Source: a virus. From it: a stretch of 29,391 bases of DNA. Made by a program: the position numbers and the translations under genes. Location of the stretch: positions 1 to 29,391 of the IMG/VR virus record IMGVR_UViG_3300033153_002788; one strand, 5' to 3'. Of the stretch, positions 1,824-26,485 are shown one piece after another. Position 1 is the stretch's first letter; every line of letters starts with the position of its first letter. The notes under the pieces are model-generated. The model was given only the letters and a program-made list of their open reading frames with translations. It made no database searches and had not been told where the DNA came from.

Positions 1824-2432
1824 ATGATTAAGGGTTTTAAAACATTTAACGAAGAATCAGAGTTAGCTACAGAAGTTAGCAATATGGTTGAATATTACGA
1901 ATTCAGTAATATGAATTTCGATACGTTAAATGAATCAGTATTATCAGAATTCAAGATGCCAGATATCTCAGGTGCTCTAGCTAGAGCCGGACTACACGCT
2001 AAGAAAGGTCGTGGTCTTATACAGATTATTGCTTCGTCAGGTATTCATTTTGCTAAGATCTTCCATGCTGCTATTAAAGCGTCAGGTGGTGATCAGGATG
2101 CAAAAGTTACTCTTAAAGACCTCCTATCAAAGAAAATAAAAAAAGAAGACATTATCGACTTCTTACTTAAATTAGATACAGCTACACTTCATTTAGTTAC
2201 TGGCCCAATCCATATGATTGAAGCTATAACAGGTTGGCATATTGGAGCTGCTGTTGCTAAAGTACGTAATACAGCTAAAGATATCTCTCAAAAAGGTAAG
2301 GATATCATAAATAAGTTAAAAGACGTTGCTACCGATTTAGAAGGTTCAGGTAAAAAATATATAGAGAAAGTTTCTAATTCAGTTGAGAAATTCTTTCTAC
2401 CACAAATAGATTCAAAATCAGTTAAGGTATAA
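1824..2432 (+). CDS. Late protein with variant capsid-targeting-like leader
   Basis: 202 residues. The start MIKGFKTFNEE resembles the capsid-targeting leaders elsewhere in the window with one extra residue, putting the putative cleavage Glu at position 11. The body is helical, with a Gly/Ala-rich stretch (about 50-80), a conserved-looking block TLHLVTGPIHMIEAITGWH (about 124-142) and a Lys-rich C-terminus. Expected role: virion or internal head protein, made late from the box at 1777. It is followed after 2 bases by the next gene. Family not identified. Confidence 0.65.
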   Translation: MIKGFKTFNEESELATEVSNMVEYYEFSNMNFDTLNESVLSEFKMPDISGALARAGLHAKKGRGLIQIIASSGIHFAKIFHAAIKASGGDQDAKVTLKDLLSKKIKKEDIIDFLLKLDTATLHLVTGPIHMIEAITGWHIGAAVAKVRNTAKDISQKGKDIINKLKDVATDLEGSGKKYIEKVSNSVEKFFLPQIDSKSVKV

Positions 2433-2434
2433 CA

Positions 2435-2659
2435 ATGAAAACAATCACCGAATATTTAAAAGAAGACGAAGTATTAGAAGAAGCTAAAGTACATCCACTC
2501 ATGGGTGATTTAGCTAAAGCTGTAAAATTAATTGATAAAGTTCGCCGTGGTAAAACTAAAATAGAAGACGATGTTATTCTAAATAAATTCAGAGACGATT
2601 GCGAAGCTACTCGTGATTATATAGAAGAAATGTTAGACTACGTTGAAGATTTAAAATAA
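2435..2659 (+). CDS. Small protein with T4-like capsid-targeting leader
   Basis: 74 residues. The leader MKTITEYLKE has Glu at residue 10 and an L-x-E cleavage pattern like T4 internal head proteins (MKTYQEFIAE). The rest is charged and helical; VHPLMGDLAK (about 19-28) resembles HPLMEKLSK in the protein at 21699-21956, suggesting the two are related. It is in the plus-strand late operon; its stop overlaps the next ATG by one base (TAATG). Candidate packaged, prohead-processed protein. Confidence 0.7.
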   Translation: MKTITEYLKEDEVLEEAKVHPLMGDLAKAVKLIDKVRRGKTKIEDDVILNKFRDDCEATRDYIEEMLDYVEDLK

Positions 2660-2940
2660 TGAAATCATTCAAAGACCATTTAGAAGAAGACGTATCAACA
2701 ACTACTGTTGGTGGTGCGAGTATCTTCACCCCAATCAAACCTACAGGTAAAGCTTTTGGATTAGACTTCTTTGAAGTAGATTGTGATAGCTTCGAAAAAT
2801 GTAGAACAAGTCCTAAAAAGAAATATAAACATTGGATGAAATTACTTAATAGTAAAGACATCCAACAATATGCTAAACAGACAAAAAGCTCTTTCCTTAT
2901 AAAACGACAAGGTAGTGAGGACTATTTGAGAGCACGTTAA
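2659..2940 (+). CDS. Small protein with T4-like capsid-targeting leader
   Basis: 93 residues. The leader MKSFKDHLEE puts Glu at residue 10 with L-x-E. The remainder has a Gly/Thr segment (TTTVGGASIFTP, about 15-26), a conserved-looking LDFFEVDCD (about 35-43), a Lys-rich middle (SPKKKYKHW) and a C-terminal strand region. Last gene of the plus-strand late operon, translationally coupled to its neighbour. Candidate internal head protein; function unknown. Confidence 0.7.
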   Translation: MKSFKDHLEEDVSTTTVGGASIFTPIKPTGKAFGLDFFEVDCDSFEKCRTSPKKKYKHWMKLLNSKDIQQYAKQTKSSFLIKRQGSEDYLRAR

Positions 2941-7041: not shown

Positions 7042-7716
7042 TTATTTAATACATATAAGAGCGATAAAATTATGAGATTGCCAGAAAGTTTCTACAGATG
7101 AGAAACCTATATCATAATAATAATTAATAATTTCATCAATATTTTTTAAATTCATCATTGTACGAAGACTCTTTTCTTTTTCAAAGATATCGTCATATGT
7201 GAAATGTTGATTCTTGTATTGGTAATACAGAGATGTTTTTATATCTTGCATACGAGCACAGTTAGAATAAACTTTTTCTGCACTTACAAATCCTGATCCA
7301 GGAATCATACTATTATACAATTCTTGAACCACTTTGTCACGAGTTTTTACATCTAAAAATTGCAATGTAAAAATATTCGTAGCGAAAGATACAATTTCAT
7401 CTTCTGGAAATGTGAAATTTTCTATATCATCCATAAAGAACTCAATATTAAAAGCACTATTATTATTCATATCATCTATAAAATTTTGTTCCTTTTCGAT
7501 ACCAGTATAATCCACTCCAACTAATGAAGACTTATCAGCCATACGTTTAAGTAGTTTTCCTGTTGAACATCCAATATCAATTACTTCTGTATTAGAACGA
7601 ATGAAATAATCACCCAAATTTTCAACGTCAGCGATTAAATCAGAATAACCGCGTATACTCTTACTAATATGATCATCAAAGTTTTTAACCGTGGCAAAAG
7701 AAAAATCATTATTCAT
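7042..7716 (-). CDS. CmoA-like carboxy-SAM synthase
   Basis: 224 residues from ATG 7716 (AGAAGG site just upstream; a longer frame to 7794 has no support). Class I SAM fold with motif I VIDIGCSTG (45-53). Similarity to E. coli CmoA by eye: FDDHISKSIRGYSDLI against FPDMIQRSVPGYSNII, NIFTLQFLD against LNFTLQFLEP, SAEKVYSN against LSEKFSFED, and FWQSHNFIALICIK against LWFQCFNFGSLVALK. CmoA makes carboxy-SAM from SAM and prephenate, normally for tRNA wobble cmo5U. E. coli Arg199, which I recall binding the carboxylate, aligns near K182/R185. It overlaps the upstream cytosine methyltransferase gene by 8 bases and no CmoB is present, so a DNA-modification role is inferred. A plain methyltransferase is the alternative. 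Confidence 0.75.
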   Translation of the reverse strand: MNNDFSFATVKNFDDHISKSIRGYSDLIADVENLGDYFIRSNTEVIDIGCSTGKLLKRMADKSSLVGVDYTGIEKEQNFIDDMNNNSAFNIEFFMDDIENFTFPEDEIVSFATNIFTLQFLDVKTRDKVVQELYNSMIPGSGFVSAEKVYSNCARMQDIKTSLYYQYKNQHFTYDDIFEKEKSLRTMMNLKNIDEIINYYYDIGFSSVETFWQSHNFIALICIK

Positions 7717-8929
7717 TTTGTAATACCTTCTCATATATATTTTTACAAAGGTACTGATACATTGGTGGTGAAACCATTCTACCAATACGCTCATACTTTT
7801 GGTTTGAATTACCTGTTAATTTATAATCTTCTGGTAATCCCATTAAGCGTATAGCTTCTTGTATACTTAATGGTCTTTTAGTATCAGGTAATATAAAGCA
7901 ACCGTTCTGTAATCCCTTCTGAGTTAACGTAGGAGATGGTTTATTATTAGATAATACATAATAATTAAAATATTTTCTTGTATCAAGAACATCACAGAGT
8001 AAGTATGCTTTATCCTTTTCCGTTTTTTGCTTAATAATAATCTTATCAATAATAGGAGAGAATCCTTTAAAATAATTTGTATTGATAAGATTATTCATCC
8101 ATTCTTCTTCCTCATGTTGGTAAACATCTTCTATATCACCAATCACTGATTTTATAGATGTCTCTATGGAGAATGGTTCAGGATAAATGTGAGCAATATT
8201 AAATTGATTGATATGTTTAGCTTCCGCAATATCATCTCTTATCGCTAAAAAAATAACTCGTCTACGGTTTTGAGCTACACCATAATCAGATGAATTCAAT
8301 ATACTATAGGTAACTAAGTATCCAATCTTCTCAAACTCGTTAAGAATTTTATTTAGGTATTTTTTACTTTCACCAGCAGTTAAACCAACAACGTTTTCTG
8401 CGATAATAACTTTAGGTTGTATATCATTAGCTATACGGATAAATTCAAAAAATAAATCTTCTATATTCTCAACAGTTTTACCATCAGAATATTTCTTCGT
8501 TTTATTCCAACCCATCTTTTCATCAACGGTTTGTACTTCACACGAATCGAAATAATCATCACCATCATCAAATAACGAAACAGGTTTATCTTCTTTCTTC
8601 TTATTCTGTACAACAGCACCACATAATGAGAAAGCAGAACATGGAGGACTACCTTCAAGTAGATCTAGTTCACCTTTTTTGATATTAGCTTTATCTAAGA
8701 AATCTTGACCTGTTAGATCTTTAATGTCACCCAAGATAACAGGGGTATCGAAATTATCCCTGTATGTGGATACAGCTTCCTCTACGAACTCATTAGCAAC
8801 TAGAGTATTACCACCTGCTAACTTAATTCCAATAGTAGATCCACCACCACCTGAGAAAGTTGAAATGTGAGTAAATAGTTTTTTATTAGATTGTTCTAGG
8901 ACATCTTCTAAGTAATAAGGTTCGTACAT
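7709..8929 (-). CDS. DNA (cytosine-5) methyltransferase family, copy 2, with GRM motif X
   Basis: 406 residues. C5-MTase motifs in order: I (FSGGGGS, 25-31), IV with the catalytic Cys (GSPPCSAFS, Cys97), VI (AENV, 177-180), VIII (QNRRRVIF, 220-227), IX (RPLSIQEAIRLMGLP, about 352-366) and X (ERIGRMVSPP, 380-389). The usual motif X is GNS or GNA; here it is G-R-M, replacing the conserved Asn that lies near the SAM amino-acid end. It is very similar to the adjacent copy except in the block around residues 250-320, the target-recognition region, so the two probably recognise different sites. The start overlaps the copy 1 stop (TAATG) and the end overlaps the CmoA-like gene. Confidence 0.93.
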   Translation of the reverse strand: MYEPYYLEDVLEQSNKKLFTHISTFSGGGGSTIGIKLAGGNTLVANEFVEEAVSTYRDNFDTPVILGDIKDLTGQDFLDKANIKKGELDLLEGSPPCSAFSLCGAVVQNKKKEDKPVSLFDDGDDYFDSCEVQTVDEKMGWNKTKKYSDGKTVENIEDLFFEFIRIANDIQPKVIIAENVVGLTAGESKKYLNKILNEFEKIGYLVTYSILNSSDYGVAQNRRRVIFLAIRDDIAEAKHINQFNIAHIYPEPFSIETSIKSVIGDIEDVYQHEEEEWMNNLINTNYFKGFSPIIDKIIIKQKTEKDKAYLLCDVLDTRKYFNYYVLSNNKPSPTLTQKGLQNGCFILPDTKRPLSIQEAIRLMGLPEDYKLTGNSNQKYERIGRMVSPPMYQYLCKNIYEKVLQNE

Positions 8930-10149
8930 TATTTTAATATTGTCTCATAAATGTTTTTACATAATTGTTCATATATAGGAGGGGTTACCATTCTACCAAG
9001 ACGCTCGAATTTTTGATTTGGAGTACCTGTTAGTTTATAGTCTTCTGGCAATCCCATCAAACGTACAGCTTCTTGAATGCTTAATGGACGTTTACCACTA
9101 GGATGAATAAAGTTAGCAGATTGTAATCCAACTTGAGTTAACGTTGGAGCGTGTTTACTCATAGATAAAACATAATAACTAAAGTATTTATTACCACCAG
9201 GAATTACAGAAGAGAATTTATGAAAGTTATCATCAGTCTTTTGTATTTCTACTATATCACTAATAAAGGTTACTGTGTTTTGATACGTCTTACGACCCAT
9301 CAAATGCTTCATCCATCTTTGTTCGCCATGTTTCCATACTTCACCGTATTGCATTGTACCAATTACATCTCGTAATGTCAAAGGTTTTGAAATTTGATCA
9401 GGGTAAATATGAGCAAGATTAAATTGGTTAATATGTTTAGCTTCCGCAATATCATTACGTATAGCAAGAAAAATAACACGCTTACGAGATTGAGCTACAC
9501 CATAATCAAGTGAGTTAACAACTTTATATGTAACAATATATCCTATATTATCAAACTCATTGAGAATTTTATTTAGGTATTTTTTACTTTCACCAATAGT
9601 TAAGCCAGCTACGTTCTCAGCTATAATAACTTTAGGTTGAATATCGTTAGCTACACGAATAAATTCGAAGAATAGATCTTCTATATTTTCTACTTGTTTA
9701 CCATCAGAATAAGTTTTGGTTTTATTCCAACCCATCTTTTCTTCAATACTTTTAGATTCTACTTCTACAAAATATTCTTCTGTGTCATCAAACAGAGATA
9801 CAGGTTTAGTGTCATCTTTATTATAAGTTACACTACCACATACAGAGAACGCAGAACATGGTGGACTACCTTCAAGTAAATCGAGTTCACCTTTCTTAAT
9901 GCCAGCTTTATCTAAGAAATCTTGACCTGTTAGATCTTTAATGTCACCCAATATAACATTGGAGTTATTAAAGTTATCTTTATAAGTCCTTACAGCTTCT
10001 TCAACAAATTCATTAACTAATAGGGTATCACCGCCTGCTAGTTTAACACCAACAGAAGATCCACCACCACCAGTAAATGTTGAGATATGTGTAAAAAGTT
10101 TTTTATTAGATTGTTCTAGAACGTCTTTTAAATAATATTTTCGATACAT
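8929..10149 (-). CDS. DNA (cytosine-5) methyltransferase family, copy 1, with GRM motif X
   Basis: 406 residues from ATG 10149, chosen because it aligns with the start of copy 2 (MYRKYYLKDVLEQSNKK against MYEPYYLEDVLEQSNKK); a TTG 15 bases upstream is less likely. Motifs: I (FTGGGGS, 25-31), IV (GSPPCSAFS, Cys98), VI (AENV), VIII (QSRKRVIF, 220-227), IX (RPLSIQEAVRLMGLP) and X (ERLGRMVTPP, Arg386 in place of the usual Asn). Transfers a one-carbon group, or on the hypothesis below a carboxymethyl group, to cytosine C5 in DNA. No restriction endonuclease is adjacent, so the role would be protection of phage DNA. Starts 2 bases before the GroES-like stop. Confidence 0.93.
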   Translation of the reverse strand: MYRKYYLKDVLEQSNKKLFTHISTFTGGGGSSVGVKLAGGDTLLVNEFVEEAVRTYKDNFNNSNVILGDIKDLTGQDFLDKAGIKKGELDLLEGSPPCSAFSVCGSVTYNKDDTKPVSLFDDTEEYFVEVESKSIEEKMGWNKTKTYSDGKQVENIEDLFFEFIRVANDIQPKVIIAENVAGLTIGESKKYLNKILNEFDNIGYIVTYKVVNSLDYGVAQSRKRVIFLAIRNDIAEAKHINQFNLAHIYPDQISKPLTLRDVIGTMQYGEVWKHGEQRWMKHLMGRKTYQNTVTFISDIVEIQKTDDNFHKFSSVIPGGNKYFSYYVLSMSKHAPTLTQVGLQSANFIHPSGKRPLSIQEAVRLMGLPEDYKLTGTPNQKFERLGRMVTPPIYEQLCKNIYETILK

Positions 10150-10150
10150 A

Positions 10151-10429
10151 TTACTCGTCAACAAAACCCATTAACGCTTTTTCACCGATCATACGGTAAG
10201 TCTTACCATCAAGTACAAATGGAGTAGAAGCATTATACATAAATACAACCTTCATACCATTTTCAACACCTGTTTCCATTGCTACGCAAGAAGAAAGAAC
10301 AGTACCAACAGCAGGGTATTTCTTGGATGTATCTTCACCCATATAGATACCACCTTCAGATAATTCAGATGGATCTTGTGTAACTATATCAGTTAGTAGA
10401 ACGAAACCGTTCAACATTTTCATTGCCAT
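10151..10429 (-). CDS. GroES/gp31-like co-chaperonin
   Basis: 92 residues, close to GroES (97) and shorter than T4 gp31 (111). Beta-barrel pattern of the family: MLNGFVLLTDIV at the start, a mobile-loop-like segment with GGIYM (about 26-30), GTVLSSC, NGMKVVFMYNASTPFVLDGKTYRMI and a terminal LMGFVDE. It would cap the host GroEL ring and, by analogy with T4 gp31, allow folding of the major capsid protein. Assignment rests on fold-like pattern and length, not on strong identity. The upstream 66-residue gene stops 3 bases before it. Confidence 0.75.
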   Translation of the reverse strand: MAMKMLNGFVLLTDIVTQDPSELSEGGIYMGEDTSKKYPAVGTVLSSCVAMETGVENGMKVVFMYNASTPFVLDGKTYRMIGEKALMGFVDE

Positions 10430-19680: not shown

Positions 19681-20601
19681 TTAATTTGCGTCCCAAATAT
19701 GAGCTGTTAGCTGAGTAACAGGGATATTATTTGTTATCCATGCCCATAATTGTAGCTTAATTTTTGCGTTTGTCAAGGGGGATTTTTTAGGTTTTTTAAA
19801 TACTAAATATTTAAAGTCTTTAATGATAGGAGCAATATCATCTTTTTCCTTTTTACCCGAAATGCCTTTTCCTGTAGGAAGACGTTTAGTATCTTTCTTA
19901 TTATCTTTTGCGTTTCTATAGTCCTTACCATCAGAACCTTTAAAGAAAATAGTATTCTTGCGGTTGTTTAATATAACGTATATTCCACCATTAACACCTT
20001 TAGGGATTTTACCTTTATCTAAAATATCCCACATAGTATTTGCCGCACCTTCATGAGTTTGTAAAAGGATATCATCAGGTACTACACGTTCACGTCCTCT
20101 ATTTTGAGCAACAGCTAATTTATAATCAGTCAATACCCAAACTAAATGAATATTTTCTTCTTTATAACCTTGCCCAATTAATTCTGGTATAAGTTTGTTT
20201 GCTTTACTAATATTCTTTAATGTAACATCAAATAATATATTAGGTAATGTCTCAGGATTTTTTGATTGTGATAACATAGCTGATAATGTTTTATCAGTAG
20301 TACCTAGTTTTTCTACGAAAGCATGTAGTTTAGCTACATCTTTTGGATTACGTAAGTTAAGACCTTTTATCTCAGGATATTTACCTGTTGCTTTATTGAT
20401 CTTTAAAAACATTCTTTTCATTTCATCAACATCACGAACCTTGAAGTCTTGGATATTCATAAAATTATTAGAAGCGAAACCTTTACCTGATCCAGCACCA
20501 CCAGCAAGGATTACAATTTGACCATAACGTTTTCCATTATTAATTAATAATAGTTTTTCATTCAGTTGTTCTTCTGTAAGGAATTCTGTAACTGACTTCA
20601 T
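19681..20601 (-). CDS. Zeta-toxin-like P-loop kinase with capsid-targeting leader
   Basis: 306 residues. The leader MKSVTEFLTE matches the T4 internal-protein leader (Glu at 10, L-x-E). A P-loop follows: IVILAGGAGSGKGFASNNF (29-47), then VRDVDEMKR, an FDVTLKN strand (about 124-130), HLVWVLTDYKLAVAQNRGR with a kinase-type Arg pair and VVPDDILLQTHEGA. This layout resembles zeta toxin/AAA-type small-molecule kinases; zeta toxins phosphorylate UDP-N-acetylglucosamine and block wall synthesis. The C-terminus has a Lys/Gly linker (about 225-250) and a helical end. Last gene of the packaged-protein cluster; starts 4 bases inside the preceding ORF. Substrate not deducible. Confidence 0.75.
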   Translation of the reverse strand: MKSVTEFLTEEQLNEKLLLINNGKRYGQIVILAGGAGSGKGFASNNFMNIQDFKVRDVDEMKRMFLKINKATGKYPEIKGLNLRNPKDVAKLHAFVEKLGTTDKTLSAMLSQSKNPETLPNILFDVTLKNISKANKLIPELIGQGYKEENIHLVWVLTDYKLAVAQNRGRERVVPDDILLQTHEGAANTMWDILDKGKIPKGVNGGIYVILNNRKNTIFFKGSDGKDYRNAKDNKKDTKRLPTGKGISGKKEKDDIAPIIKDFKYLVFKKPKKSPLTNAKIKLQLWAWITNNIPVTQLTAHIWDAN

Positions 20602-20864
20602 TGATTGTTTCCGTATTTAGTAGATAGATAGTTATATTCAGCTAATAATTTTTTATGTAAAGCAATTTGATAAGGAGTAGCTTTTCTATACTTCATTAAA
20701 TTTTCTAATTTAAGAATCTGACTGCTTAACTCTCTAATGCGTGATTGCGATTGAAGCATAATGTAATTATCTGTAGAAGGTGCATTTTTATATTGATTTG
20801 CATAATCAGCAGAATTTACATTAAAAGATATAATAAGTGATAGTATTAATAATAATGTTTTCAT
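20598..20864 (-). CDS. Small secreted protein with coiled coil
   Basis: 88 residues. Sec signal peptide MKTLLLILSLIISFNVNSA with probable cleavage after residue 19 (NSA|DY). The mature part is helical (QSRIRELSSQILKLENLMKY, about 40-59) and periplasmic. Directly downstream of a membrane protein with a coiled coil, so the two may form an envelope complex; a spanin-like function is possible, but there is no lipobox. Confidence 0.65.
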   Translation of the reverse strand: MKTLLLILSLIISFNVNSADYANQYKNAPSTDNYIMLQSQSRIRELSSQILKLENLMKYRKATPYQIALHKKLLAEYNYLSTKYGNNQ

Positions 20865-20865
20865 C

Positions 20866-21225
20866 TCATTTACTCTGTAGTGATTTCAATTCATCTTTAT
20901 ACTGTTCTAATATAGCAGCATCAAATGGTTCTAAAAATTTATTATGTTTAGCAAGCTTATTTTTTCTAAATCTTAATTTAAAGATCTTATTTTCTAAATT
21001 ACGAATATCTTCTACTCTTTGTTGAGCTTTAGCTGAAGCAATAGAAATATATAGAGGATCTAGCTTAGTTGTTATTTCAACTAATTTAAGATATCTCTGG
21101 TCGTTTCTGTAATCTAAATAGAAGAATGCAGCAGAGGTAAACAATCCACTAAACATAATAACAAATGCTAGTACAGTAGATAAATTTTTAAGGTTCTCTA
21201 TGAATGATTTATCACTATCATACAT
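20866..21225 (-). CDS. Single-pass membrane protein with coiled coil
   Basis: 119 residues: a short N-terminal helix (SFIENLKNLSTV), a membrane segment about 19-37 (LAFVIMFSGLFTSAAFFYL), then a long basic helix (QRVEDIRNLENKIFKLRFRK, about 69-88). Topology N-in with the bulk in the periplasm, like inner-membrane spanin subunits, though nothing else ties it to that family. No capsid-targeting leader despite its position in that cluster. Confidence 0.65.
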   Translation of the reverse strand: MYDSDKSFIENLKNLSTVLAFVIMFSGLFTSAAFFYLDYRNDQRYLKLVEITTKLDPLYISIASAKAQQRVEDIRNLENKIFKLRFRKNKLAKHNKFLEPFDAAILEQYKDELKSLQSK

Positions 21226-21228
21226 TGA

Positions 21229-21444
21229 TTATAATTCACCAAACATGATATCAAGAATATCATCTAATAGATTTCCTTTGATTTTAAGTTTCTTTAGAAT
21301 TTTTACAGCTTTATCTTCAGCACCATCATTTAACGCAGAAGCTAATTTTTTACCTTCCACACCATCCATTGCATCATCAAGAGCTTTCTCAGCTTTCTTG
21401 ACACGAGCACTAGCTTCTACAACAAACTCTTTATATCTTTTCAT
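21229..21444 (-). CDS. Small protein with T4-like capsid-targeting leader
   Basis: 71 residues. The leader MKRYKEFVVE, followed by Ala, has Glu at residue 10 with V-x-E and is close to MKTYQEFIAE|A of T4 internal proteins. The body is a single Lys/Asp-rich helical domain (VKKAEKALDDAMDG, KAVKILKKLKIKGNLL). Candidate packaged protein; the predicted mature part is about 61 residues. Overlaps the upstream gene by ATGA. Confidence 0.7.
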   Translation of the reverse strand: MKRYKEFVVEASARVKKAEKALDDAMDGVEGKKLASALNDGAEDKAVKILKKLKIKGNLLDDILDIMFGEL

Positions 21445-21698
21445 TTAAGTTCCTTAAATATATCATCAATTTCACGAGCGACAACTTGACCTTTTTTACC
21501 TTTAATATTAATAACCCATAAGTCATTATCATCTAAAGAAAAATCTCCAATAGTCTTACCTTTTTTATTAATTTTATGAACTCCACCATTACCACGTACT
21601 AATGTGATACTCCCAGATGTCAATTCCTTTTTACCACTCATCCATTTATCAGCTAGTGGGTATTTAGATTCTCTTAAAAATTCTTTTATTGATTTCAT
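21441..21698 (-). CDS. Small protein with T4-like capsid-targeting leader
   Basis: 85 residues. Leader MKSIKEFLRE (Glu10, L-x-E). The body is beta-rich and basic: YPLADKWMSGKK, SITLVRGNGGVHKINKKGK, GDFSLDDNDLWVINIKGKKG and a C-terminal helix. Looks like a small folded domain rather than a core scaffold. Function unknown. It begins right after the preceding stop. Confidence 0.7.
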   Translation of the reverse strand: MKSIKEFLRESKYPLADKWMSGKKELTSGSITLVRGNGGVHKINKKGKTIGDFSLDDNDLWVINIKGKKGQVVAREIDDIFKELK

Positions 21699-21956
21699 TT
21701 ACTTTATTCTCTGTATAGCCATTTTTAGAGTTCCAAGAACTTCTGATTCCACTTTCTCTAAATTTACATCAGACATTTCCCAATCTTTAAGCTCTAATTG
21801 AATAGCTTTATCAACAACACCCGAACCTTTTAATAACTTAGCAATTGCTTCTTTTGCAACTTTTAAAGTATCTACATATGCTTTCTTTTCAACTTTACTT
21901 AATTTTTCCATTAGAGGATGACTGTCTTCTTCTAAAAATTCTGTTAATGATTTCAT
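21699..21956 (-). CDS. Small protein with T4-like capsid-targeting leader
   Basis: 85 residues. Leader MKSLTEFLEE (Glu10, L-x-E). SHPLMEKLSKVEKKAYVD follows, related by eye to HPLMGDLAKAV in the plus-strand protein at 2435-2659. The rest is helical (DTLKVAKEAIAKLLKGSG). Candidate packaged protein; its tie to the late-strand paralogue links the two sites of this family. Confidence 0.7.
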   Translation of the reverse strand: MKSLTEFLEEDSHPLMEKLSKVEKKAYVDTLKVAKEAIAKLLKGSGVVDKAIQLELKDWEMSDVNLEKVESEVLGTLKMAIQRIK

Positions 21957-22183
21957 TTTGAACTTAATTCCTTATTGAATAAACCTTTAAATTTTGAATC
22001 TCTTGCTTGAGCAATATGAACAATATATGCGTTACCATCTTTACCACGATATAATCCAACAAGACCATCTGTAGTTTGTGTTACAGCGATACGCTTCTCG
22101 AAGAACTTACCAATAATACCACTCATTGCTTGAACGAGTTGGGCTGGTCGAGCTTCTGATATTAATTCTTTTATTGATTTCAT
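21953..22183 (-). CDS. Small protein with T4-like capsid-targeting leader
   Basis: 76 residues. Leader MKSIKELISE, followed by Ala, is an I-S-E|A cleavage site very close to T4 I-A-E|A. The body has a helix (QLVQAMSGIIGKFFEKRI) then a small beta domain (VTQTTDGLVGLYRGKDGNAY). Basic overall. Function unknown. Confidence 0.7.
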   Translation of the reverse strand: MKSIKELISEARPAQLVQAMSGIIGKFFEKRIAVTQTTDGLVGLYRGKDGNAYIVHIAQARDSKFKGLFNKELSSK

Positions 22184-22494
22184 GATATATACATGTTTAA
22201 TTCGTATCTACCAGTGGCAGTTCGCTTGCTACTACCTATACCATACACTTGAAAGTGTACAGCTTTTCTTTGTTCTTTATCACCTTTATACAATTTTAAT
22301 GTATAACGATTTGTTTTACCATCAGAAGGCTTTTTCGGGCCAGTACTTACAGTATCAAATACTTCATCATCATCAACTTCAAATCCGTTTTTCTTTACGA
22401 AAGCTAACATTTCTGTGATAGCAGAGGTTAATGTATTATGATAAATGGTATAATCTTTCTTACCTTCTTTTAAAAATTCTTGTACTGTTTTCAT
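22180..22494 (-). CDS. Small protein with T4-like capsid-targeting leader
   Basis: 104 residues. Leader MKTVQEFLKE, followed by Gly. The body begins YTIYHNTLTSAITEMLAFVK, then an acidic DDDEVFDTV, RYTLKLYKGDKEQRKAVHFQ and an end strand YELNMYIS. The pattern YHNTxTSA...G...R..L...K..RKA..F.VY recurs, from memory, in marine T4-like phages without known function. A compact alpha/beta domain is expected after leader removal. Confidence 0.7.
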   Translation of the reverse strand: MKTVQEFLKEGKKDYTIYHNTLTSAITEMLAFVKKNGFEVDDDEVFDTVSTGPKKPSDGKTNRYTLKLYKGDKEQRKAVHFQVYGIGSSKRTATGRYELNMYIS

Positions 22495-22501
22495 TTTATT
22501 C

Positions 22502-22855
22502 CTAATTATGGTATTTATTAATTACATCATCTATATTAATTATTTTTTTATTAATATCTTCAACATCTTTTTTAACTTTACCATTACAATCCTTATTTAT
22601 TACTATAATTCTAGGTTTAACTTTAGAATTAGTTTTTTCTACAGTACTTTTCTTTGGAGGATTGTAATAAGGTTTCATTTCTTCAATCTGTTTCTTTAGT
22701 ACAACATTTTCTGATGTAACATCTTGCTTATCAAAATAATGCCACCCACCAGTAGAGATTCCACTAAAGGTAATAATAATCATAACGATTAATTTCCAAT
22801 AATCTCTTACTACGTCAGGAAGCTTTGTAATTATTTCCCATTTATCAGTAGCCAT
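22502..22855 (-). CDS. Single-pass membrane protein
   Basis: 117 residues: cytoplasmic N-terminus (MATDKWEIITKLPDVVRDYW), membrane segment about 21-41 (KLIVMIIITFSGISTGGWHYF), then a Lys-rich, Pro-containing extracytoplasmic part (PYYNPPKKS) and a C-terminal helix. The start overlaps the stop of the secreted YadA-like protein by one base (TAATG), so the pair is cotranslated and may form an envelope complex. Confidence 0.65.
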   Translation of the reverse strand: MATDKWEIITKLPDVVRDYWKLIVMIIITFSGISTGGWHYFDKQDVTSENVVLKKQIEEMKPYYNPPKKSTVEKTNSKVKPRIIVINKDCNGKVKKDVEDINKKIINIDDVINKYHN

Positions 22856-23223
22856 TAGAATCTCTTAACCCCACCGACAGAGACCATTTCATCATCATCC
22901 CCATCTTGTTTAGTAACTGAGAAAGTAAGTAGTACATCTTTATATCTTTGACATAAACTAAGAGCTATAGCTGTTTTAGATTTATGATTACTCATACCAA
23001 AACCACCCTGTAAACTATAAGTATCCCATTCACAGTTAGTAGCATGAGCTACAGCACCGGCCATAGCCATACTTACATCGTCTGTAGATTCTATAATATT
23101 TGTTATATTGTTATAGTTAATAGTATCATTATGATCATGATCATTATGGTCATCACCATTAGCCATTGAACTAGTACAAATAGCAAACATAAGTATAAAA
23201 CCAATAAATATTTTTTTTATCAT
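22855..23223 (-). CDS. Secreted protein with YadA-anchor-like C-terminus
   Basis: 122 residues from ATG 23223 (AAAGGGA site; upstream frame extension to 23295 shadows the neighbour). Signal peptide MIKKIFIGFILMFAICTSSMA. A His/Asp-rich segment follows (NGDDHNDHDHND, a likely metal binder). The C-terminal half, VSMAMAGAVAHATNCEWD then LQGGFGMSNHKSKTAIALS, VLLTFSVTKQ and MVSVGGVKRF, resembles the trimeric YadA outer-membrane anchor (G-x-S-A-x-A-x-G ... GxGxxxxF). It could trimerise in the host outer membrane during infection. Two Cys are unusual for that fold. Confidence 0.6.
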   Translation of the reverse strand: MIKKIFIGFILMFAICTSSMANGDDHNDHDHNDTINYNNITNIIESTDDVSMAMAGAVAHATNCEWDTYSLQGGFGMSNHKSKTAIALSLCQRYKDVLLTFSVTKQDGDDDEMVSVGGVKRF

Positions 23224-23236
23224 ATCTAATATCCCT

Positions 23237-23494
23237 TTATTTATTACGAGTCTGTTTATCCATAACTTTAGCAAGCTCACGAGGTTTAAGACCAACCTGT
23301 TCTGCTGCTTTCACCAATGCGAAAGACGCAGAAATATTCCCACGCTTTAAAATTTCTTTTTGTATTTTAAGAGCTTCTTTATATTGATTCTTATGAAGAA
23401 TACGCTTGAGAAAATGTAGTAATTTTTTAGGAAGAATATCTTTAGTAAGAGAAGTTATCATAGCTTCTTCATTAAATTCAATAAACGTCTTCAT
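23237..23494 (-). CDS. Small protein with T4-like capsid-targeting leader
   Basis: 85 residues. Leader MKTFIEFNEE, followed by Ala (Glu10; Asn at the -3 position instead of Leu/Ile). The body is strongly basic and helical (KKLLHFLKRILHKNQYKEAL, ALVKAAEQVGLKPRELAKV), which suits an internal DNA-associated protein. Last capsid-leader gene before the first secreted/membrane pair. Confidence 0.68.
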   Translation of the reverse strand: MKTFIEFNEEAMITSLTKDILPKKLLHFLKRILHKNQYKEALKIQKEILKRGNISASFALVKAAEQVGLKPRELAKVMDKQTRNK

Positions 23495-23781
23495 TAATAA
23501 TTCTCAGTATGTTTAATTCTAGCTCGACTATCTTTATCAGAGTAATCTATAGAAAGCTTTTGAATCTTGGAAGATTTATCGTTATTTGTAACGCGCTTAA
23601 TTACTAATTTTGATTCTAATGCTTTTTTTATATCTTCACTGGTTTTGTCGCCAGCGTAGTGTTTAATCATTTTTTTGCCTTGAGGCTTTTTCATGATAGC
23701 ATCCATAAAATCATTGATTATTTTTTCAGAAGATTCGTATAATTCCTTCTTCTCTTCATTAAATTCAACAAAGGACTTCAT
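23494..23781 (-). CDS. Small protein with T4-like capsid-targeting leader
   Basis: 95 residues. Leader MKSFVEFNEE (Glu10), nearly the same as the next gene downstream. The body: an acidic helix, IINDFMDAIMKKPQGKKMIK, TSEDIKKALESKLVIKRVTN and a basic end. Basic overall. The one-base overlap with both neighbours makes translation coupled. Function unknown. Confidence 0.68.
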   Translation of the reverse strand: MKSFVEFNEEKKELYESSEKIINDFMDAIMKKPQGKKMIKHYAGDKTSEDIKKALESKLVIKRVTNNDKSSKIQKLSIDYSDKDSRARIKHTENY

Positions 23782-24074
23782 TAGTTACTCAGATCTTTTA
23801 TTTTAAAAATAGCTTTACTTGAAAATGGTACTAATCGTTTACCAGATAAACCTATTCCAATTATAGCATTATCTTTAGTGATTAATTTTAACATTAATTT
23901 ATCATCTTTATCACCAAGAAACCAGCCAGTGACTTTTTTCATGATTTCAGGTAAATCTTCTTGTAATTTATCATATAAATCACCAAATGTTTTAGTACCG
24001 TAAACTTTGGTCAAAAAAGGATTAGATGTACTTCCTTGAGTTCTTTCTGATAGATATTGGTCTACTGATTTCAT
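23781..24074 (-). CDS. Small protein with T4-like capsid-targeting leader
   Basis: 97 residues. Leader MKSVDQYLSE (Glu10, L-x-E). Then SNPFLTKVYGTKTFGDLYDK, IMKKVTGWFLGDKDDKLMLK and a C-terminal beta region (NAIIGIGLSGKRLVPFSSKA). Probably a small alpha/beta domain. Function unknown. Coupled by overlap to both neighbours. Confidence 0.7.
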   Translation of the reverse strand: MKSVDQYLSERTQGSTSNPFLTKVYGTKTFGDLYDKLQEDLPEIMKKVTGWFLGDKDDKLMLKLITKDNAIIGIGLSGKRLVPFSSKAIFKIKDLSN

Positions 24075-24367
24075 TTTATAGCACTCTTTAAAAAGTCAAC
24101 TGCTTTTTTAACACCTTTTGGATTACCTACAGCACCCATACGTATCATATTAGCAATTTTATTATCTATACCAGCGCGTCCATCTCGTATGAATTGATTC
24201 CATACTCTCTGAACTTCTAAATTATTACTTTTTAAAAAATCTTTAATGGCTGATACACGTACACCTGTTTGAACACCAAATTCAGCCAATGCTGAATCTA
24301 CAGAGAGTAGTCCAACTTTAGGTTTCAAAAATTTAACTTCATCTAAAAATTCGTCTACTGATTTCAT
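24071..24367 (-). CDS. Small protein with T4-like capsid-targeting leader
   Basis: 98 residues. Leader MKSVDEFLDE (Glu10, L-x-E). The body is helical with VDSALAEFGVQTGVRVSAIK, then LEVQRVWNQFIRDGRAGIDN and KGVKKAVDFLKSAIK; helix-turn-helix character is possible. First gene of the cluster in transcription order, with promoter-like sequence just upstream. Function unknown. Confidence 0.7.
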   Translation of the reverse strand: MKSVDEFLDEVKFLKPKVGLLSVDSALAEFGVQTGVRVSAIKDFLKSNNLEVQRVWNQFIRDGRAGIDNKIANMIRMGAVGNPKGVKKAVDFLKSAIK

Positions 24368-24379
24368 TTTATTCTCGTT

Positions 24380-24407
24380 ATTATATAATATGTATACTAT
24401 TTATCAT
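24380..24407 (-). promoter_or_regulatory. Possible promoter for the capsid-leader cluster
   Basis: The minus strand has TATAAT (24385-24380) with ATGATA (24407-24402) 16 bases upstream, and an overlapping GATAAATA (24405-24398), one base from the T4 late box. Either an early or a late signal could start here, 30-odd bases before the first leader-bearing ORF. Neither is exact in all parts. Confidence 0.35.
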
Positions 24408-24888
24408 TCTTTAAGATTTTTTCAATCAGTTTCTTAGCACTAGCAAATCCTTTATAAAATACAACTTCCCCACCAGCTGATTTGAAAGGTAAAGTTGCTT
24501 TCTCACGATCATCAATCAATAAAGTATCATCTTTAGCAAAATCAGATTTAGCTTTAGAAGTAGTCACATAATTAAATTTATTTGCTAATTGTGGGAAATG
24601 TTTCTTCAACCAAATAACTTTATCGACAGCATTACCCTTTGAACCATATTTTCCAACAGAAGTCAACACTTCAACGTTTACAGGATAACTTTCAACTAAT
24701 TTAACTAAATTCTTAGCATCTTTCATTAAAGGTAAATCTCGAAAAAAGTTAATATCAGAGAAGGATTTCTTCGCTTTTACTAGTTCTTCAACATCTGCAT
24801 CCTTTAAATTCTTATATACTTTATTGTAAGCTATCTCAAAATCAGCTAATACACCATCTAAATCTAAATATACTGTCTTTATCTTCAT
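24397..24888 (-). CDS. 5'(3')-deoxyribonucleotidase, HAD superfamily
   Basis: 163 residues. Motif I DLDGVLADF (9-17) is the NT5C signature, with nucleophile Asp9 and acid/base Asp11. VLTSVGKYG (about 74-82) is motif II and TLLIDDREKA (about 122-131) carries the motif IV acidic pair. Removes phosphate from deoxynucleoside monophosphates; in phages this probably adjusts nucleotide pools, alongside ThyX. Driven by its own sigma70-like promoter (24921-24949). The start has a GGAAAG site. Confidence 0.88.
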   Translation of the reverse strand: MKIKTVYLDLDGVLADFEIAYNKVYKNLKDADVEELVKAKKSFSDINFFRDLPLMKDAKNLVKLVESYPVNVEVLTSVGKYGSKGNAVDKVIWLKKHFPQLANKFNYVTTSKAKSDFAKDDTLLIDDREKATLPFKSAGGEVVFYKGFASAKKLIEKILKNDK

Positions 24889-25798: not shown

Positions 25799-26485
25799 TT
25801 ATTTTGACCATATTTTGTCCATATTTCCACGTAATATAGTTTTTAATTTAAAAGATTTTCCTAATATATGATCTGTAATCCTATCGTCTTGAAATCTATA
25901 GGTACGTATTTTATCACCCCGCATACCACTACCAACCATAGATGAACGATTCTCATTACGCTTTGAATGTTGTTCATTATGAGTTTTATCATCAAGTATT
26001 TTATTGACGGCATTCTTAGCATCAATTTTATTTTTATTTTGGGAACGACTATCCCTTTCTTGTTTAATACCTGTAGGAAGATGTATACACTTTATAGCGG
26101 ATAGCGTTTTATTTTTCTTTTGGCCGCCAGCACCAGTAGACTTAAATAATTCAAAACGATAATGTTTATCATCTCGTAAATTATATTTAGACTGAGAAGA
26201 ATAATTACCATCTAATACAGCAACAGTCACAGTAGATGTATGTACACGACCTTTAGTTTCCGTTGGAGGAATTCTTTGTATACGGTGACCACCTGATTCG
26301 TTTTTTAAACAATCAAGTTTATTACCAATTATTTCTATTGATATATAGCCAGAACGTTGGCTAAGACGCGTAGACTTTCAGCCTAGCTTGAGGAATGTTT
26401 TTTCGTAAGCGATAGCAAGATCATTTACAAATAGTTTTGAATCGTCTCCACCTTCGGCAGCTCGGATTTCCATTATACGTTTCAT
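25799..26485 (-). CDS. Phage class I peptide release factor (RF1-type) interrupted by an in-frame UGA
   Basis: 228 codons from ATG 26485 (AGGAG site) to TAA, counting one in-frame TGA at codon 36 (26378-26380). The frame is the same on both sides: MEIRAAEGGDDSKLFVNDLA ... FLKLG-TGA-KSTRLSQRSGYISIEI, then ESGGHRIQRIPPT (63-75) with PPT at the RF1 PxT codon-recognition site, and GGQ (120-122) for peptidyl-tRNA hydrolysis. The TGA stands where RF1 proteins have Trp in xxWxVE. RF1 domain 1 is missing, as in other short phage or ribosome-rescue-type factors. Full product needs readthrough; otherwise the gene is dead. UGA is a true stop elsewhere in the window. Confidence 0.8.

Follow-up and report, generated by a model that had tools for sequence, protein, structure and literature searches.

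A leader-bearing gene array that probably forms the internal-protein island of a T4-related phage

We analysed the metagenome-derived IMG/VR virus record IMGVR_UViG_3300033153_002788 over its positions 1 to 29,391 (the window, 29,391 nucleotides), whose minus strand carries, between 19681 and 24367, an array of ten genes beginning with the same type of ten-residue leader. The leader matches that of the T4 internal proteins, its cargo is modular at the cut site, and close relatives encode the corresponding protease. Most probably, the array is the internal-protein island of a T4-related phage, in which leaders package unrelated cargo for delivery with the DNA; packaging of the leader proteins, taken by itself, is likely, and we hold it a shade more firmly. 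In the proposed mechanism, each array gene would join a capsid-targeting leader of about ten residues to an unrelated cargo, the leader would dock the precursor on the scaffold core during prohead assembly, and a gp21-type (S77) protease would cleave after the Glu of [L/I/V]-x-E, usually E10 (E15 in a kinase). Cleavage would free the cargo inside the head, from where it would enter the cell together with the DNA and, during the first minutes, act on the host. The evidence strongly argues for packaging and cleavage in the window phage; injection of the cargo with the DNA and its anti-host action are probable by analogy with T4, and we hypothesize that each cargo may counter a host defence.

A shared leader in the window and in T4

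The initial annotation had described ten open reading frames (ORFs) with an MK(S/T/R) start, Glu at residue 10 and unrelated bodies. All ten are found on the minus strand, with an ATG start, M1, K2, S/T/R at residue 3 and E10 (the coordinates that named them there, kept here, are their low, 3' ends). For the window, the count of ten was too low: two plus-strand genes missed at the time, 2435 and 2659, bring to 12 the genes that share the leader. They are listed below, with a slash at each candidate cut.

24071..24367, minus strand: leader gene, MKSVDEFLDE/VKF, 98 aa; body without known relatives
23781..24074, minus strand: leader gene, MKSVDQYLSE/RTQ, 97 aa; no relatives found
23494..23781, minus strand: leader gene, MKSFVEFNEE/KKE, 95 aa; site without L/I/V-x-E
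23237..23494, minus strand: leader gene, MKTFIEFNEE/AMI, 85 aa; site without L/I/V-x-E
22180..22494, minus strand: leader gene, MKTVQEFLKE/GKK, 104 aa; mobile cargo domain as its body
21953..22183, minus strand: leader gene, MKSIKELISE/ARP, 76 aa
21699..21956, minus strand: leader gene, MKSLTEFLEE/DSH, 85 aa
21441..21698, minus strand: leader gene, MKSIKEFLRE/SKY, 85 aa; body recurs in records L151 and L242
21229..21444, minus strand: leader gene, MKRYKEFVVE/ASA, 71 aa; weak PHROG matches
19681..20601, minus strand: leader gene, MKSVTEFLTE/EQLNE/KLL, 306-aa P-loop kinase; Zeta_toxin family, phrog_5268
2435..2659, plus strand: leader gene, MKTITEYLKE/DEV, 74 aa; absent from the initial annotation
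2659..2940, plus strand: leader gene, MKSFKDHLEE/DVS, 93 aa; absent from the initial annotation

The array is a single tight, operon-like run with gene spacings of -4 to +16 bases; ten leader genes within 5 kb is the largest array among 291 scanned records, the next highest holding six. The pattern MK[STR]...[FYLH][LIVN].E arises at a rate of 7.4e-5 in shuffled N-termini, or about 0.003 occurrences expected by chance in some 45 genes, against 12 seen. Scores from a leader matrix are bimodal among window ORFs, with 12 at or above 13.3 and the next at -0.8. Leader columns 2, 4, 6, 7, 8 and 10 are conserved and columns 5 and 9 variable: position 4 is V/F/I/L/Y and E10 is present in all 12, position 7 is F/Y in ten (L and H in the remaining two), and position 8, the P3 residue of a gp21-type site, is L or I in nine and V in one. 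Within the array, eight of ten leaders have L, I or V at position 8, and the L/I/V-x-E ending, which the initial annotation gave for most of the ten, holds for those eight, failing in 23237 and 23494.

Could the array stem from recent duplication of one gene, the shared leader being residual homology? As duplication would have it, the genes lie next to one another, point the same way and differ little in size, but no body (residue 11 onward) resembles another in pairwise BLASTP at E<0.1, as the initial annotation had correctly seen. Moreover, this leader type also precedes unrelated bodies in T4, in the closest relative of the window and in cyanophages, and the 22180 body stands behind different leaders and in polyproteins. 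We therefore regard duplication as extremely unlikely.

The leader was compared with T4 using a position matrix built from the ten array leaders only and scored on 410 T4 ORFs. The top four were gp61.1 (20.3), IPIII and IPII (16.4) and IPI (12.1), with a large gap below them (next ORF, 6.3). By the same score, then, 12 window genes face four T4 ORFs, which bears out the statement that such genes are far more numerous here than in T4. Experiments on the T4 IPIII leader have assigned residues 4 and 7 to targeting and residues 8 and 10 to processing, and gp21 cleaves after L/I-x-E (PMC9026906); the same positions 4, 7, 8 and 10 are conserved columns in the window leaders. IPI, IPII and IPIII resemble the window genes in having a 10-residue N-terminal leader with matching residues 4, 7, 8 and 10 and unrelated small basic bodies on separate small genes. 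They differ in number (three, against 12 here, ten of them in a single array), in the lack of any body homology and in the kinase among the window cargoes. The T4 IPI-III are anti-restriction proteins that inhibit different GmrSD restriction enzymes, and T-even phages as a group are reported to possess at least ten internal proteins (Ips) (PMC12373910). Two details given for T4 in the initial annotation were wrong: Alt does not start MKTYQEFIAE, the T4 ORF reading MELITELFDE (Glu10 still present), and the Glu10 start is not common to the internal proteins, IPI reading MKTFKEFTST. Alt, a packaged ADP-ribosyltransferase, is nonetheless like the window kinase in being an enzyme with a leader ending in Glu10, and unlike it in its leader letters and in its activity, the window enzyme being a P-loop kinase.

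The best T4 match to the matrix, gene 61.1 (L007:18966-19130), encodes 54 aa starting MKTFKEFIKE/DMVAG. From its sequence, gp61.1 may belong, unrecognised so far, among the T4 internal proteins.

Cargo modules and the kinase gene

The 22180 body resembles a stretch in a 463-aa protein of Methylophilales phage Melnitz (gene 20), and the similarity begins directly after Glu in both proteins. An IMG/VR scan returned 118 relatives of this body, found behind other leaders and inside polyproteins of marine T4-like phages. The junction reads [LIVMF]xE in 44 of 51 distinct contexts, whereas positions drawn at random from these proteins do so in 7.7% of cases; most of the other seven contexts carry Ala where Glu would stand. 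LxE junctions thus lie at module borders within long proteins, remote from translation starts. Other bodies recur similarly: that of 21441 behind a leader in L151 and, between ELEE/ and VKE/, in the L242 polyprotein, which also carries the 22180 module; one similar to 2659 after an LxE site in L235 and L264, in proteins whose N-terminal part resembles window gene 1275; and that of 23237, weakly (E=0.003), as a module after VELDE/ in the NMNAT-type polyprotein of L232. Zeta-type kinases occur within three long proteins (L211, L261 and L265). Such long proteins from marine T4-like phages (Melnitz gene 20, L242, L211, L265) have in common with the array the bodies of 22180 and 21441 and kinases of the zeta type, set between [LIVM]xE sites; they are unlike it in carrying many modules per polypeptide where the window has one leader per gene. 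Three of them (L265:5262-9830, L242:1645-3804 and L211:6654-8270) look like strings of small domains with [LIVM]xE between; one of these has a zeta-type kinase at its end and contains an HNH-like module.

The bodies are small, and most have no recognisable domain. Weak matches from residue 1 link 21229 and 22180 to internal virion or head protein families (phrog_3155, phrog_7857, phrog_2667), at E 0.004-0.02 only, so that no membership is claimed; for 21229 the values are 0.004 (phrog_7857) and 0.012 (phrog_3155). A model of 22180 (pLDDT 81) had no fold match in the PDB. Its best BFVD match (E=0.012, TMq 0.50) was to a protein of 1134 aa that bears the name 'Anti-CBASS protein Acb1', and Pfam detected no Acb1 domain in the polyproteins related to 22180; we take this model-based match as a lead only. 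PADLOC gave no match beyond one weak one on the window bodies, which says nothing on inhibition of defence.

The Zeta-toxin-like kinase 19681 is the sole functional clue among the cargoes. It matches phrog_5268 along its full length and Pfam Zeta_toxin (PF06414) at 26.0 bits, above the curated cut-off of 22.3; its counterpart in the closest relative of the window scores 28.6 bits. In an alignment of 30 kinase sequences, 26 residues are invariant, including G34, G35, S38, G39 and K40 (Walker A), D57, D59, R170, R172 and also Glu15. The N-termini of relatives of 19681 vary greatly in length, and all 24 distinct ones have [LIM]xE right before the domain. An AlphaFold2 model of 19681 has pLDDT <50 at residues 1-15, followed by a folded P-loop kinase, so that LxE15 sits exactly at the end of the disordered tail. 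The cut after Glu10 proposed in the initial annotation fits most of the leaders; the kinase is likely cut at LNE15/K, with E10 as a second candidate, although LxE15 might, less probably, be conserved for a structural reason.

By Foldseek, the nearest solved folds include polynucleotide kinases as well as PezT and AvrRxo1-ORF1 (TM-scores moderate, 0.39-0.44), and we found no solved structure related to 19681 by sequence. The gene thus resembles the Zeta toxin/UNAG kinase family in its Pfam score and conserved Walker A, and departs from it in these TM-scores and in lacking a recognised antitoxin gene: no neighbour matched an antitoxin family, though small divergent antitoxins might escape detection. 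The phrog_5268 kinases found in Straboviridae (among them RB43-like phages and Aeromonas phage 65) are related to 19681 over its full length; like it, they start in the manner of MKSFKDF and have LxE ahead of the domain. They are annotated as hypothetical, their leaders vary in length, and the loci read usually have no adjoining array. The nearest kinase match in the phage collection, in LR756508 (43%), has no leader array nearby.

Turnover of the array and evidence for packaging

Single-protein searches of IMG/VR (kinase, PhoH) and a megablast of the region returned no close relative; alignment-based scans succeeded. The closest relative, G001, is the 60.8-kb IMG/VR contig behind L151. Its flanks match those of the window, with the nucleotidase before and the kinase after a leader array of about eight genes. 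Only three of the ten window leader cargoes are shared and the others differ; identity is 52% for the 22180 body, 40% for the 21441 body and 67% for the kinase. Such turnover of cargo between conserved flanks fits a role in an arms race. The window genes, at least 12 and alike only in their leader, suggest an unusually large, fast-changing set of proteins delivered with the DNA. Besides an S77 protease and a scaffold, G001 encodes a major capsid protein in which an ELNE/AAT site occurs, and the S77 prohead protease (PF03420) scores above its cut-off in 11 of 18 related records, including G001 and Melnitz. One gene of the G001 array (L293:13192-13815) encodes 208 aa starting MLKFKQYISE, with a YRG-like motif and no Pfam match; it is possibly a small ADP-ribosyltransferase.

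Do the cargoes act on the host, or do they merely fill the head? The leader could be a true targeting and cleavage signal on core or scaffold fillers, or on DNA-condensing proteins, which would remain in the head or be ejected without host action. The bodies are indeed small, mostly without a recognisable domain, and of higher basicity than the rest of the window's proteins (p=1.4e-4), like DNA-associated internal proteins. However, a structural role would hardly go with cargo that is replaced between close relatives while its flanks are conserved, a Zeta_toxin-family kinase is among the cargoes, T4 IPI-III are anti-restriction proteins (PMC12373910), and the leader is found on enzymes of a cyanophage, described next. 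We consider the filler explanation unlikely.

Virions of cyanophage S-CREM2 (OR473000), purified on CsCl, contain enzymes whose route into the particle was left unexplained by the authors (PMC10665884). We scored its 219 coding sequences, 52 of them detected by mass spectrometry (MS), against leaders from the window and from T4. The four that scored highest were an APH/ChoK-like kinase, an S-adenosylmethionine (SAM) hydrolase, a cytidylyltransferase and gp13; all four are in the virion list (p ~0.003) and none has an assigned structural role. The products gp12, gp15 and gp136, also in virions, were given leaders by eye and are not counted, being post hoc. A cluster in this genome (L297:3837-13331) comprises the SAM hydrolase gp6, the Cas9-like gp12, gp13, the APH kinase gp14 and gp15, virion-detected products that all have leader-like N-termini ending xxE. 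In Morganella phage MP1, one of two leader matches, gp136 (score 20.7, 59% coverage), is in the virion list, and in S-SZBM1 an NMNAT with a 9-residue leader is listed among the MS-detected proteins. At a stricter score threshold of 12, set from T4, and with T4 included, six of ten leader proteins are detected (p=0.003, assuming that about 45 of 289 T4 genes encode virion proteins).

Several observations weigh against packaging and delivery as we read them. At the same threshold, the three external phages alone give three of six leader proteins detected by MS (p=0.09). MP1 gp135, the other leader match, is not in the virion list, and neither of two high-scoring leader genes of S-SZBM1 is among its 30 MS-detected proteins. 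In the window, 23237 and 23494 read EFNEE, with N at position 8 and hence no hydrophobic P3; the 29-kb fragment holds replication genes and no head genes, and the protease is known only from relatives. Over the whole window, seven exact copies of the T4 late promoter motif TATAAATA stand against 9.5 expected, hence no enrichment, and none lies in front of the array, so that the motif lends no support to late expression of the array. The bodies had no match among known anti-defence proteins. Finally, UvsW.1-type proteins have leader-like N-termini (MKTFKEIFEQ in MP1, and MKSFTTFVNEA; L307:16341-16568 and L006:15723-15953); either they are packaged too or they are false positives of the motif, which may then not be exclusive to packaged proteins. 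Virion-proteome support for the leader is thus real but not uniform.

The UvsW.1-type start and the S-SZBM1 genes unseen in virions would also suit a shared N-terminus that is no packaging tag, serving as an address for a replication or membrane complex, or as a common translation or regulatory signal. Yet the window matrix retrieves T4 IPI-III, whose leader is experimentally capsid-targeting, LxE junctions recur at module borders far from translation starts, and leader codons vary whereas residues stay conserved; we judge this explanation very unlikely. The T4-type targeting and protease signal proposed in the initial annotation finds good support in the sequence, the module junctions, the protease gene in relatives and one published virion proteome.

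Neighbouring genes and meaning of the array

Four genes within the array range have no leader (20598, 20866, 22502 and 22855). They form two pairs (20598-21225 and 22502-23220), in each of which one small protein is membrane-like and the other signal-peptide-like; the pairs have no counterpart in the G001 array. These genes, the conserved flank and a plus-strand gene with a looser leader are as follows.

22855..23220, minus strand: leaderless 121-aa protein, signal-peptide-like N-terminus by eye; no Pfam match
22502..22855, minus strand: leaderless 117-aa protein, one membrane segment by eye; no PHROG match
20866..21225, minus strand: leaderless 119-aa protein, membrane segment by eye
20598..20864, minus strand: leaderless 88-aa protein, signal-peptide-like by eye
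24397..24888, minus strand: 5'(3')-deoxyribonucleotidase without leader; conserved array flank
1824..2432, plus strand: looser leader MIKGFKTFNEE, 202 aa; absent from the initial annotation

The 1824 product is possibly a core or internal protein. Exact copies of TATAAATA at 1262-1269 and 1777-1784 lie just upstream of plus-strand genes 1275 and 1824, which lead into leader genes 2435 and 2659; these copies may be late promoters. Elsewhere in the window, 7709-10164 holds two adjacent, similar DNA cytosine-5 methyltransferase genes (TIGR00675), and 25799-26230 encodes a release-factor-like protein that is truncated and bears a GGQ motif; its closest models are RF1 and PrfH.

The leader is already known, as are the variable internal proteins of T-even phages. 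Judged from the open-access literature, four points are new: the size of the array, the presence of a Zeta_toxin-family enzyme among the cargoes, the way in which one and the same cargo passes between single-leader genes and polyproteins, and an explanation, by means of the leader, for enzymes in cyanophage virions. We lean towards a broader reading, in which T4-related phages use a portable delivery code: any domain furnished with a short leader or with [LIVM]xE linkers would be marked for head loading and release, and cargo domains, including zeta-type kinases, would move between single-leader arrays and multi-cargo polyproteins. If true, this would account for the SAM hydrolase, kinases and NMNAT in cyanophage virions and would predict new T4 cargo such as gp61.1. 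The leader would then be an address label, readable from sequence, for proteins delivered at infection across T4-related viruses beyond coliphages. Dozens of unannotated small genes and odd virion-associated enzymes would become testable injected effectors, and islands between conserved flanks would be places to seek new anti-defence proteins.

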